Virus record (IMG/VR): IMGVR_UViG_3300032132_000028
Coordinates: 1-33,951 of that record
From: a virus
Length of the DNA stretch: 33,951 bases
Strand: one strand, 5' to 3'
Position numbers and translations under genes: made by a program. The notes under the pieces were generated by a model, which had not been told where the DNA came from, ran no database searches, and saw only the letters and a program-made list of their open reading frames with translations. Below are positions 11,729-27,899 of this stretch, piece by piece (the first letter of the stretch is position 1; every line of letters begins with the position of its first letter).

Positions 11729-11743
11729 CGTTTCTGCTCCTGT

Positions 11744-11850
11744 TGTTTGTGGTGGTAACTGTGTCTGATGAGCTAAGTATTGTAATGTATCGGCAGCCCG
11801 TCAATATACCTTGCAATGTTTTTTTGAGAATTGGCAAAGATTCCCCGAAA
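11744..11850 (-). repeat. promoter/operator repeat, copy B
   Basis: This ~107 bp stretch is nearly identical to 13613-13717. It contains, on the minus strand, a conserved block ending AATCTTTGCCAATTC, an A-run, the operator-like arms, the promoter and the TACCACCAC leader. Differences from copy A cluster in the downstream operator arm and at the initially transcribed bases. Confidence 0.85.
11776..11817 (-). promoter_or_regulatory. sigma-70-like promoter with overlapping inverted-repeat operator (copy B)
   Basis: Minus-strand -35 TTGACG (11804-11799) and -10 AATACT (11781-11776) are separated by 17 bp. Arms at 11806-11817 (plus: ATACCTTGCAAT) and 11779-11790 (plus: ATTGTAATGTAT) flank the -35 and overlap the -10. 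The second arm differs at two bases from the perfect copy A version, so a repressor may bind it more weakly. Confidence 0.7.
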
Positions 11851-13598: not shown

Positions 13599-13612
13599 CG
13601 TTCTGCTCCGTT

Positions 13613-13717
13613 TGTTTGTGGTGGTAACTGTGTCTGATGGGCGAAGTATTGCAAGGTATCGGCAGCCTGTCAACATACCTTGCAATGTTTTTTCGGAATT
13701 GGCAAAGATTCCCGAAA
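13613..13717 (-). repeat. promoter/operator repeat, copy A
   Basis: This ~105 bp stretch is the partner of 11744-11850. Its operator arms are perfect. The homology begins at the TACCACCAC leader and extends beyond the promoter to the block AATCTTTGCCAATTC (minus strand). Confidence 0.85.
13645..13686 (-). promoter_or_regulatory. sigma-70 promoter with perfect inverted-repeat operator (copy A)
   Basis: Minus-strand -35 TTGACA (13673-13668) and -10 AATACT (13650-13645) are 17 bp apart. A perfect 12-bp inverted repeat, ATTGCAAGGTAT at 13648-13659 and ATACCTTGCAAT at 13675-13686, is separated by 15 bp. The -35 lies between the arms and the -10 overlaps one, so a dimeric protein bound to both arms would block RNA polymerase. 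Confidence 0.75.
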
Positions 13718-13727
13718 GCAGCAGGAA

Positions 13728-13934
13728 TCAGGCGTTTTCAGACTCGACTTCGAGTCGCAGCAATCGTGATTCCATGCTGGACACGCGATCGCCGAGATCG
13801 GCGGCAGTCGCTGCCGATGCCTCGATCCGTGTAACTCGACCGTGCATCGAGTATGCCCACGGAACCGCAGCGATCAGAATCGTCGTCTGCACGCCGAGCA
13901 ATCCACACACGAGAGTCATCGCCGTTTCAGTCAT
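13728..13934 (-). CDS. small membrane protein with coiled coil
   Basis: This 68-residue protein begins MTETAMTLVCGLLGVQ. Residues 6-28 form one hydrophobic span (with TTILIAAVPWAYSM), followed by a charged heptad-like region (RIEASAATAADLGDRV, then SSMESRLLRLEVE). The ATG at 13934 overlaps the upstream stop as ATGACTGA. The shape, one membrane helix plus a short coiled coil, is common in small phage holin-like proteins, and it is the last gene of the late operon. Holin or antiholin is a reasonable guess from context, not a demonstrated function. Confidence 0.6.
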   Translation of the reverse strand: MTETAMTLVCGLLGVQTTILIAAVPWAYSMHGRVTRIEASAATAADLGDRVSSMESRLLRLEVESENA

Positions 13935-14136
13935 TGTGTGTCTCATTCTCTTTCAGCCAGTCGGCGAGCTCACGCTCAGCCCGTTCCTGTTTCTTCTTCA
14001 GTCTCGCAGCGTGTGCCGCTTTGCCAGCCTCGGCAACAAATCCCAGCAGCCCGCGAGATGCGAGCGTGCCACCGACTGCCATGCCGCCGAGATGCCCGGC
14101 GATCGCACTCGCGATGATTGCTGTGATTGTTCCCAT
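13927..14136 (-). CDS. small glycine-rich membrane protein, holin candidate
   Basis: From the ATG at 14136, which has GAGGA 8 bases upstream, this is a 69-residue protein. The first ~37 residues are hydrophobic and glycine/alanine rich (TAIIASAIAGHLGGMAVGG, then LLGFVAEAG), with small-residue patterns typical of interacting membrane helices. A strongly charged helix (LKKKQERAERELADWLKEN) follows. It sits between the secreted protease and the other small membrane gene, so a pore-forming or pore-regulating role in lysis is plausible. Confidence 0.6.
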   Translation of the reverse strand: MGTITAIIASAIAGHLGGMAVGGTLASRGLLGFVAEAGKAAHAARLKKKQERAERELADWLKENETHND

Positions 14137-14146
14137 TCCATTTTCC

Positions 14147-15550
14147 TCAATGTGCAAAACGGCGATGCAGCAGACCGGTCAGCAGGCCCGGTATCAGACC
14201 GAGCAGATAGTTCAGCGGATCACCGTCCACATCGCGGCGAACATCCTGCACCGTGCCACGCAACTCGCCGGCGTTCTCTTTCAGGTCGGCGACTTCCCGC
14301 TTCAGTGTGAGCACTGCTTTCGCTTTCTCGATCGGATTGCCGTTCTTCAGTTTGTCCACTGTCTCACGCAGCGTTGCCGCGTTCGATTTCAATTCGCCGG
14401 CATTCGTTTTCAATTCATCGACCTGCCGCTTCAGTCGCTCGACTGATCCCAGAGCGATTCCGACCGGCTCACTGATCTCAACTGACGGCGTGCCGTCTGG
14501 CGGCCGCGGAGTGTTCCCGATCGGATCAGGAAACGGCACCGGCGGTTTCGGCGGCCCGATCACAATCCTCGCTCCGAGATTGATCACGCCTTCGAGGAAT
14601 CCCAGCACGCCGCCGAGCGGCTTCGCATCGTAGCCCACGCGGTATCGAGTCGTGCCGCGAACCCAGACCAGCGGGAACACGAGATCATCTTTCGGCGGTT
14701 TTGCTGTCTCCCTGAACTCGCGTTCCAGTTCCGGCCGATCGAACGCATTGAGCTGCGGATCGTACTTGCAGAACACAATCCTGAACTGCTTGAACGCACC
14801 GGCTGCGACATCACGCTTCAGCCGCTGGCACGGTTCACAGTTCGGCGTGACGAACATGATCACTTCAGGCTGTGCCTGTGTCGTCTCAATCACGCACGGC
14901 TCTGCCTGTATCGTCCGTTGATACTTCCAGATGATATCGTCGGCGATCGGCTCAGCGTGCCGTACAGCGTGCCTGACGGCTTCGTGAGTGATCCAGATCG
15001 ATTCAAACGAGCCATCGGGATTCTTACCGGCACCGGTCAGCAGTCCGACGACTTCGCCGCGATCATTCAGCAGCGGTCCACCGCTCCAGCCGGGCAGCCC
15101 GGCATTGCTCGCAACTGTCACGCGGAACGGGACTCCCTGCAGTTGTGCACGTGCCCTGCCGGTCACAGTGCCGGCAGAGCGTGTCAATTGTCGATCACCA
15201 CCTTTCCCGCCGGGATATCCGAATGACTGCACCCGATCGCCGACCGCCGGCGGAATCGTCGCGATCGACAGCCACGGGAACCCGCTGCCTTCGCACAGAA
15301 ATGCAATCGGCCCGTCACCGTTGCGACTTTTCAGCAGCTGCACTGCCCGCACTTTTCTGCCGTCTGGAAACTCAGCGGTCAGGTAGTTTTTCAGTCGGCA
15401 ATGCCGAGCCGACAGGATCAGCCCGCGATCGCTCACGCAGACGCCGGAGCATCCGCCGATCTTCACGACAGCCGCAGACGGCTCAGCACCGGTGCAGATC
15501 GTTGCCGCGAATGCGAGAAACAGAAACGCTCTGAGAATTGCTGATTTCAT
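14147..15550 (-). CDS. secreted trypsin-like protease fused to thioredoxin-like and coiled-coil domains
   Basis: This 467-residue protein starts MKSAILRAFLFLAFAATICTG, a signal peptide ending near residue 21, so it is exported. Residues ~25-195 are a trypsin/HtrA-like domain with H50 (SARHC), a possible D79 and S156 (GWSGGPL). Residues ~228-325 look thioredoxin-like, with a CEPC motif (238-241) in FVTPNCEPCQRL. A proline-rich linker (333-355) leads to a heptad-repeat coiled coil (366-440) and a C-terminal hydrophobic helix (about 445-461). The ATG at 15550 overlaps the lipase stop as ATGA; the frame open to 15703 is basic shadow sequence. Placement next to a lipase and two small membrane proteins suggests an envelope-attacking role at lysis. 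Confidence 0.8.
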   Translation of the reverse strand: MKSAILRAFLFLAFAATICTGAEPSAAVVKIGGCSGVCVSDRGLILSARHCRLKNYLTAEFPDGRKVRAVQLLKSRNGDGPIAFLCEGSGFPWLSIATIPPAVGDRVQSFGYPGGKGGDRQLTRSAGTVTGRARAQLQGVPFRVTVASNAGLPGWSGGPLLNDRGEVVGLLTGAGKNPDGSFESIWITHEAVRHAVRHAEPIADDIIWKYQRTIQAEPCVIETTQAQPEVIMFVTPNCEPCQRLKRDVAAGAFKQFRIVFCKYDPQLNAFDRPELEREFRETAKPPKDDLVFPLVWVRGTTRYRVGYDAKPLGGVLGFLEGVINLGARIVIGPPKPPVPFPDPIGNTPRPPDGTPSVEISEPVGIALGSVERLKRQVDELKTNAGELKSNAATLRETVDKLKNGNPIEKAKAVLTLKREVADLKENAGELRGTVQDVRRDVDGDPLNYLLGLIPGLLTGLLHRRFAH

Positions 15551-16281
15551 TTTCCGCCCCCCAGTGCTCGCCGATAACTGGTCATCATGTGTTCTACGAT
15601 CAGATCGCCGCGATACCCGAGCACACGATCGACCATCAGTGACAACCAGTTCGGCCGATGCTGTTCTCGACCGAATCGATCCAGATGCACATGCTGCCCG
15701 CAATGCTTAAACCTGATCGGCAGCGGCACCCGCGGCACGATGTCATTGCCGTTCGTGATGCGGTAGTGATTCGGCAGACTGCGATTCACAACGCGAGCCG
15801 ATCCATGTGTGAAGCATCTCGGCGATCCGAATGTGTAGCAGCCGCGAACCGGAAACCCTTCACGATGCAGAGCCAGTGCCGTGAGCACAGCCTGCGGTGC
15901 TCCGAGCGAATGCCCGGTGACATATACTGCCGCCGGTTTCTGATCTTTGACCTGCAGCCACAGCCACGGCCAGACAGCCTGCCATGCCCGCAGAAATCCA
16001 GAGTGCCCGCTCAGCTTCAGTTTGCCGCAGCGAGTGTTTCCAATGCGGAGATCAAAGTCATTCCGCCAGTCGTTCAGGCTCGTGATCTCAGTGCCGCGGT
16101 GAGCCACAACGAGACTAGCCGGATCAGAGATCAGCAGTGCGGTTGAATCATCATCTTCGATGAATTCCGCATCGGTCGCAGACCAGCGGGAACGCACAGT
16201 ATCGGCTTCGACTTTCGGCCGGTACGCATCGGCTGCAGCCCGTGCGAGCGTGTTCGCGATCTCGTTGCTGTAGTGATTCAT
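15547..16281 (-). CDS. class 3 lipase-like alpha/beta hydrolase
   Basis: This 244-residue protein contains the lipase class 3 signature: HRGT near 61, the nucleophile elbow GHSLG with S125, D180 in NGNDIVPRVP and H231 in the C-terminal EHMMTSYRRAL helix, completing a Ser-Asp-His triad. It should hydrolyse ester bonds of lipids such as phospholipids or triacylglycerols. I see no signal peptide, so reaching the envelope would need a holin or similar pore. It is translationally coupled to the secreted protease gene. In the late operon it probably serves in lysis, although a moron or virion enzyme is possible. Confidence 0.85.
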   Translation of the reverse strand: MNHYSNEIANTLARAAADAYRPKVEADTVRSRWSATDAEFIEDDDSTALLISDPASLVVAHRGTEITSLNDWRNDFDLRIGNTRCGKLKLSGHSGFLRAWQAVWPWLWLQVKDQKPAAVYVTGHSLGAPQAVLTALALHREGFPVRGCYTFGSPRCFTHGSARVVNRSLPNHYRITNGNDIVPRVPLPIRFKHCGQHVHLDRFGREQHRPNWLSLMVDRVLGYRGDLIVEHMMTSYRRALGGGK

Positions 16282-16298
16282 TCATCACAGATATAGAC

Positions 16299-16484
16299 TC
16301 ACGAGACGAATGTGATCACGTCGCCGTCGATGTTGAATCCGCTCGCCTGCACCTCACAGATGCCATTCATGAGCCGGAACAATCCGCCGCGAATCATGCG
16401 GGCGTGAGCGACTGTGCTGCCGTCTGCTGTGCAGACTGCATACTGCTTGCGATGCAGATCGAACAGGATATAAAAGCATCTCAC
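16299..16484 (-). CDS. small hypothetical late protein
   Basis: This 61-residue protein starts MRCFYILFDLHRKQYAVCTA and looks like a compact beta-sheet protein (ILFDLHRKQYAV, FRLMNGICEV, GFNIDGDVITFV). Its start overlaps the previous stop as ATGA. No family recognised. It lies between tail-fibre-type genes and the lysis cassette. Confidence 0.55.
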   Translation of the reverse strand: MRCFYILFDLHRKQYAVCTADGSTVAHARMIRGGLFRLMNGICEVQASGFNIDGDVITFVS

Positions 16485-16681
16485 GCGGCGTTCTCTTTAC
16501 GATCAGGACAGTTGATGCACTGCCTGATCTCCTGTTCGGTTGACGGTTTCATCAGCGTGCAGAGGTCATACAGAACGCATTCGAATGCCGCGACTGCACC
16601 GCTCGGGCAGTTGCAGGCAACGTGCCGCTCATAGTCGCCGCGATGCTCGCACGGTGGTGATGCTCTGCGGAAATGTCTCAC
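16481..16681 (-). CDS. small cysteine-rich protein
   Basis: This 66-residue protein has seven cysteines, including CNC near 23-25, a later C-x5-C pair in ECVLYDLC and a final C-x2-C (CINCPD), so zinc binding or disulfides are possible. It is basic at the N-terminus. It begins 2 bp after the preceding tail gene. Function unknown; a small virion-associated or regulatory zinc protein would fit. Confidence 0.55.
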   Translation of the reverse strand: MRHFRRASPPCEHRGDYERHVACNCPSGAVAAFECVLYDLCTLMKPSTEQEIRQCINCPDRKENAA

Positions 16682-27786: not shown

Positions 27787-27821
27787 TTCATACGCTCCGC
27801 GCCACCATGCTGATCAGCAAT

Positions 27822-27895
27822 TGCCGGCGGCGGGAATCGAACCCGCGGAAACCAGATAATGAGCCTGGTCAGGGATTCCAGCACCCTTCGCCGGT
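27822..27895 (-). tRNA. degenerate tRNA-Met(CAT)-like gene
   Basis: A 74-base cloverleaf can be drawn on the minus strand. The acceptor stem pairs 6 of 7 (CCGGCG with CGCCGG, A1-C72 mispaired). The T arm GCGGG-TTCGATT-CCCGC is perfect. The anticodon stem CCAGG/TCTGG encloses CTCATTA, giving anticodon CAT. The D stem has 3 pairs, position 8 is A instead of T, and base 37 is T. CCA is not encoded. These departures suggest a weakened or specialised tRNA rather than a standard elongator or initiator. Confidence 0.75.
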
Positions 27896-27899
27896 ACAG

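Follow-up and report, generated by a model that had tools for sequence, protein, structure and literature searches.

Four coupled genes that close the late operon of a temperate tailed phage, encoding a class 3 lipase, a secreted protein that joins a protease to a thioredoxin-like domain, and two small membrane proteins, probably make up a host-lysis (envelope-opening) cassette of tailed phages that infect planctomycetes. The set recurs in many related viruses that have no recognisable wall-cutting enzyme, and it is this recurrence that points to genes for bursting the host. The window, as the whole stretch of DNA analysed is called here, comprises the 33,951 bases of IMG/VR record IMGVR_UViG_3300032132_000028, and the phage within it carries, by Pfam and PHROGs, terminase, portal, ClpP-like protease, HK97-type capsid, tape measure and tail proteins, as well as an integrase and a replication module.

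Layout of the cassette

All four ORFs lie on the minus strand between positions 13728 and 16281 as the final genes of the late operon, with tail genes before them and a promoter-like repeat and the integrase gene after them. The first-pass annotation of this DNA had described four coupled late genes here, and the overlapping ORFs and their place at the operon end agree with it; such clustering of late genes is a trait of phage lysis cassettes. The features, in window coordinates, are as follows.

13601..13713, minus strand: promoter-like leader repeat, a 91% repeat of 11732-11845, marking where the late operon ends downstream
13728..13946, minus strand: TM-CC membrane protein, 72 aa, one predicted transmembrane (TM) segment (TM score 2.0) and a C-terminal coiled coil
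13927..14136, minus strand: HLGG membrane protein, 69 aa from ATG 14136, one TM segment by hydropathy
14147..15550, minus strand: protease-thioredoxin protein (PT), 467 aa from ATG, with trypsin protease, thioredoxin-like domain, coiled coil and C-terminal helix
14165..14215, minus strand: C-terminal hydrophobic helix and basic HRR tail of PT, residues 446-462, with a conserved GLL-GLLHRR motif
14222..14449, minus strand: predicted coiled coil of PT, residues 368-443 (long helices in the model at low confidence, pLDDT 46-55; coiled-coil Pfam echoes)
14546..14875, minus strand: thioredoxin-like domain of PT, residues 226-335, with C238-E-P-C241 (model, invariant CxxC, homologue match)
15041..15451, minus strand: protease domain of PT, residues 34-170, with H50, D79 and S156 (Trypsin_2; alignment of 8)
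15488..15550, minus strand: predicted signal peptide of PT, residues 1-21 (hydropathy 1.7-1.9; N-terminal hydrophobic stretch kept in homologues)
15547..16281, minus strand: class 3 lipase, 244 aa (Pfam Lipase_3, PHROG esterase/lipase)
15907-15909, 15742-15744 and 15589-15591, minus strand: lipase triad S125, D180 and H231, invariant in 11 lipases
16481..16681, minus strand: 66-aa Cys-rich protein upstream of the lipase (tblastn matches in L117, 4e-10, and L219, 0.003)

The Cys-rich protein, whose place ahead of the lipase is conserved in L117 and weakly so in L219, may belong to the cassette. In comparison with a near relative (G001), the lipase and PT genes are under purifying selection (dS 0.039 and 0.071, dN 0.005 and 0.011, respectively; dN/dS about 0.13-0.15), and the nucleotide identity of the two small genes is 84-87%. 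The promoter-like repeat is present as two copies of about 114 nt on either side of the integrase gene, each consisting of the promoter-like sequence TTGACAGGCTGCCGATACCTTGCAATACT (minus strand) and a leader that is found again before other early genes. A tRNA-Met gene (CAT; 27821-27896, minus strand) separates the capsid gene from that of the head-tail connector.

The protease-thioredoxin protein

The start of the PT gene overlaps the lipase stop by 4 nt in the window. Its protease domain matches Trypsin_2 (1.9e-15; 58.3 bits against a cut-off of 27.6) with the His-Asp-Ser triad of HtrA-type proteases, is nearest to HtrA2/DegS by profile, and has HtrA2, DegP and DegS as its closest solved structures. 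H50, D79, S156, C238 and C241 are invariant in all eight aligned PT proteins, and the catalytic residues of both PT and the lipase are unchanged among homologues at 26-40% identity. No PDZ domain was matched in PT by Pfam; the thioredoxin-like domain and coiled coil occupy the C-terminal part instead.

The case for the thioredoxin domain is weak from the window protein alone (Pfam match at E=0.1, below cut-off) and holds from its relatives and the structural model: the homologue L261 matches Thioredoxin_2 above cut-off (6.2e-10), the CxxC motif persists through the alignment, and residues 229-331 of the model follow the thioredoxin-like order beta-alpha-beta-alpha-beta-beta-alpha. A protease with signal peptide and thioredoxin-like CEPC motif, as recognised in the first-pass annotation, is thereby upheld, the signal peptide by hydropathy only. 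Sharing of the thioredoxin domain between PT proteins with trypsin-type and metallo-type proteases was judged by motif and Pfam because MAFFT misaligned the thioredoxin part, and that alignment was discarded. Also set aside as chance-level were the PHROGs and Pfam matches of the PT coiled coil and the small proteins, including one to 'Rz-like spanin' (E=0.064).

The C-terminal helix is probably an inner-membrane anchor, as suggested by its conserved hydrophobic motif; its hydropathy is below the TM threshold in most PT proteins, and the helix is absent from L111. No canonical lipobox was seen in PT, which has the signal peptide and the C-terminal hydrophobic helix.

The structural kinship with HtrA2, DegP and DegS would also fit a role in envelope quality control or stress silencing, in which PT, as a phage DegS/DegP combined with thioredoxin and with the lipase as an accessory, helps periplasmic proteins to fold, removes them, or dampens the stress response of the host; thioredoxin domains do fold periplasmic proteins. 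This reading is improbable, however, given a PT without PDZ domain, and it leaves unexplained the exchange of the protease for a metalloprotease, the recurrent lipase or YiiX partner (see below) and the holin-like genes.

The lipase and the small membrane proteins

The lipase matches Pfam Lipase_3 (PF01764) at 1.2e-22 (80.7 bits against a gathering cut-off of 22) and PHROG esterase/lipase at 1.8e-20, and it has the GHSxG nucleophile motif. The complete Ser-Asp-His triad read earlier from the sequence is confirmed by the alignment of 11 lipases, across which all three residues are unchanged. Neither export signal nor TM segment is apparent in the lipase by hydropathy, and the signal is absent from all 10 sequences checked. 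Lipase matches in L104 and L105 were rejected as phage genes, being chromosomal genes of the host.

The two small membrane proteins noted at the outset are indeed conserved among relatives, each with one TM segment predicted by hydropathy only. HLGG could start at TTG 14157 (76 aa, 13927-14157), and its homologues, which lie immediately 3' of PT in most of seven phages, begin at ATG 14136. It has no Pfam match and no significant PHROG match. Homologues of TM-CC are present in L217, L218, L117 and L226, and TM-CC-like sequences stand upstream of YiiX-PT pairs in three Planctomycetota prophage loci (L260-L262). TM-CC is holin-like by size and topology, and for both proteins a holin role is suggested by size and a single TM segment. 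The profile searches proposed in the first-pass annotation for PT and the small proteins named the Trypsin_2 domain in PT and gave the small proteins chance-level matches only.

Recurrence and position in other phages

Relatives were found by a lipase-profile scan of viral contigs and by PT scans. The lipase-PT pair is present in 10 lineages: the window phage, G394-G401 (the G401 contig begins within the lipase) and G103:C35, a planctomycete genome contig. Seven of eight measured junctions show a 4-nt overlap of the lipase stop with the start of PT; 9 nt separate the two genes in G400, and two genes lie between them in G398. The four-gene set is identical in composition, order and place, from tail genes to integrase, in the 40.8-kb G394, whose cassette genes share 36-48% identity with those of the window and whose terminase, portal and capsid share 54-66%. 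In G395 the lipase, PT and HLGG are accompanied by a different TM protein, and in L217 PT and the two small genes are found at the margin of a contig. The phages that carry the cassette differ in build, with HK97-like types, a lambda-type portal in G103:C35 and G026, and a Mu-type portal in G398. By tblastn, none of 50,697 records of cultured phages matched PT, the YiiX protein or the PT form that goes with it, and the lipase had remote matches in 10 of these records only.

Module position varies among the cassette phages. The integrase-side site in the window counts against lysis in that it also suits lysogenic-conversion genes, which are often situated between the tail genes and the integrase, and a secreted, anchored protease with an HtrA-like fold would fit surface remodelling. 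The genes could on these grounds form a lysogenic-conversion or superinfection-exclusion module whose enzymes alter the lysogen's envelope (receptors, surface lipids, proteins) without lysis. This is unlikely, however: the cassette shares its strand with the late operon and its genes overlap, the module lies amid morphogenesis genes in L226 and the L260 prophage and between replication and terminase genes in L257, away from the prophage end in each case, and the phages would be left without any detected lysis gene. A tail lipase and protease that open the envelope at infection would be consistent with the tail-fibre genes that adjoin the cassette in the window and the lipase in L103, but PT has a signal peptide and the place of the cassette relative to tail genes differs (L257, L120, L146, L111), which makes virion-associated entry enzymes a very improbable reading. 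In L103 (G067:C938, 1638-2423), part of a planctomycete genome, the lipase gene is coupled to a Gly-rich tail-fibre-like gene, PT is absent and an integrase module adjoins.

Exchange of enzymatic parts

The two enzymes of the cassette are exchanged between lineages. Three of these, namely G398, G103:C35 and G399 (closely related to the window phage), have a PT that begins with a metalloprotease-like HExxH domain in place of the serine protease, and the thioredoxin CxxC is kept. The G103:C35 protein matches Peptidase_MA_2 (4.6e-8) with the motif HEVSH, and the PT proteins of L117 and L226 have HEVDH in a domain homologous to it. The HExxH domain of L111 is nearest to chromosomal planctomycete proteins, which suggests recruitment from hosts.

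The lipase, in turn, is replaced directly before PT by a YiiX-fold cysteine hydrolase in the G026 prophage and the G293 and G367 loci. The model of a viral homologue is matched by 3kw0, a cysteine peptidase, and by YiiX (2if6), so that this enzyme shares the fold of the YiiX/permuted NlpC-P60 hydrolases; it has no Pfam match, and the window itself has no such enzyme. Of 32 viral loci of the YiiX type, 29 can be read downstream, and in every one of these (24 distinct groups at 90% identity) a secreted PT-type protein comes next. As classed from motifs and translations, 19 of these have protease and CxxC, seven protease only, one thioredoxin only and two neither, and the last two still share the C-terminal domain. 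Since protease and thioredoxin are each absent from some YiiX-type cassettes, a point against the lysis reading, neither would be indispensable in every lineage.

Search for a cell wall hydrolase

The window had been said to hold no recognisable muramidase, amidase or endopeptidase, and no peptidoglycan hydrolase was found in it by Pfam, PHROGs or five targeted family searches. Muralytic Pfam families were likewise lacking in the window phage, G394 and G103:C35 (phages of about 34-41 kb) and the G026 prophage. Phage_lysozyme, SLT, Peptidase_M15_4 and Peptidase_M23 were absent from 18 virus records, in searches that detected the positive controls, and Amidase_2 from nine; these records may be fragments, and wall hydrolases of unrecognised families would escape such searches. 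The ORFs for the Pfam lists were called by simple rules, with some small or already named proteins omitted or covered by PHROGs only. For a 63-kb phage (A14) the best 25 of 27 Pfam families were considered, which is partial evidence of absence only. A canonical endolysin elsewhere in the genome, a finding that would have spoken against the original proposal, did not appear in the window or the related records scanned. The endolysin that defines a holin-endolysin(-spanin) cassette was thus not found by Pfam, PHROG or targeted scans, and for this reason the genes are not filed as a holin-endolysin system.

Certain other planctomycete prophages (L095-L096 in G323:C2, and L097 in G383) lack the cassette as well as any endolysin that could be recognised by eye. 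They may represent further lysis types, or hold a lysis gene that escaped detection.

The host and its envelope

A planctomycete host, which the first-pass annotation had raised conditionally, is supported by a terminase fragment very like that of the window in a Planctomycetaceae MAG, with host genes alongside, and by cassette prophages in the Planctomycetota genomes G103, G026 (6.36-Mb contig), G293 (7.74-Mb contig) and G367, in a module search that covered this one phylum. Terminase relatives in other planctomycete genomes (L087, L089, L091, L093) were dropped for want of any other homologue of the window phage in the stretch examined. The G026 prophage is present in two identical copies 36,168 bp apart (L257-L259; G026:C1:190001-245000), which suggests either prophages in tandem or a duplication introduced by assembly.

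The proposal had been motivated by an envelope rich in disulfide-bonded protein, and this part is weakly founded. Planctomycetes have peptidoglycan sacculi that are disrupted by lysozyme (Jeske et al. 2015, PMC4432640), so that the notion of disulfide-bonded protein taking the place of peptidoglycan in the wall is, as a generalisation, out of date, and the description of a lysis system that has no wall hydrolase leaves a step missing. The lysis reading otherwise retains its support in position, coupling, lack of a recognisable endolysin, host and recurrence. One cultured planctomycete phage is reported to be released without lysis of the host cell (eLife 2024, PMC10945688), and no other description of phage exit from planctomycetes was found in the open-licence papers searched. 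The occurrence of the cassette in Planctomycetota prophages makes the question of phage release directly testable.

A model for envelope opening and its relation to known systems

The best reading of these genes is that they follow the usual three-part logic of lysis with unusual chemistry. The signal peptide would export PT and the C-terminal helix hold it in the inner membrane, so that protease, thioredoxin and coiled coil face the periplasm (N-out/C-in). There the protease may cut proteins that join outer membrane and wall, and the thioredoxin may reduce or shuffle their disulfides, a spanin-like job. The lipase, without export signal, would wait in the cytoplasm like a classical endolysin until TM-CC and/or HLGG, as holin or antiholin, permeabilise the inner membrane and set the timing, upon which it would hydrolyse membrane lipids. 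Host autolysins may weaken the peptidoglycan, or an enzyme of unrecognised type may cut it. It is possible, if doubtful, that planctomycete tailed phages of several head and tail types share such lysis without a peptidoglycan hydrolase, through lipolysis or a YiiX hydrolase together with a tethered protease-thioredoxin. If lysis here does lack a dedicated wall hydrolase, the cassette would represent a new enzymatic route and a pointer to what holds the planctomycete envelope together.

The likeness to lambda-type holin-endolysin-spanin cassettes lies in a small membrane protein, a signal-less, presumably cytosolic hydrolase and a periplasmic coiled-coil protein with a putative anchor, encoded where the late operon ends. 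The hydrolase, however, is here a lipase or YiiX-fold enzyme, with no peptidoglycan hydrolase found in the scans, and PT adds protease and thioredoxin domains, with no outer-membrane lipoprotein partner identified. LysB, a mycolylarabinogalactan esterase, works beside the endolysin LysA, whereas the cassette lipase belongs by sequence to Lipase_3 and no LysA-like gene was found. As a lipolytic lysis esterase of mycobacteriophages (PMC6116114), LysB nonetheless resembles the putative role of the cassette lipase in the lysis of an outer-membrane-bearing envelope. PT resembles spanins in its predicted periplasmic coiled coil and putative membrane anchor, and disulfides are important in spanins (SpaninDataBase, PMC6139136). 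The authors of that study put forward N-out/C-in proteins whose TM segment is C-terminal as possible i-spanins of an unrecognised form, and the topology proposed for PT is of this form; PT differs from spanins in its much larger size and its enzymatic domains, and no canonical lipobox was seen in it. With HtrA/DegS it shares protease fold and triad, but in place of PDZ domains it has thioredoxin, predicted coiled coil and putative C-terminal anchor, and it is phage-encoded beside a lipase. No description of such a cassette was found in the open-licence literature searched, which accords with the earlier impression that this division of labour between lipase and protease-thioredoxin had not been described.

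Genes adjoining the cassette

In relatives of the window phage, a sulfotransferase and a putative glycosyltransferase-like gene adjoin the tail genes (L023 8132-9849 and L218 2144-3004; Pfam Sulfotransfer_3). Where PT itself has an internal TM segment and an additional C-terminal domain, the next gene encodes a protein of 260-290 aa (L117 8088-8900, L226 7614-8477 and L260 3155-3943). SNase-like nuclease genes (weak Pfam SNase) lie beside the cassette in L146 (8221-8706), L223 (7465-7914), L120 (8690-9130) and L260 (2799-3140); their products mostly have a signal-like N-terminus, and they could clear DNA at release.
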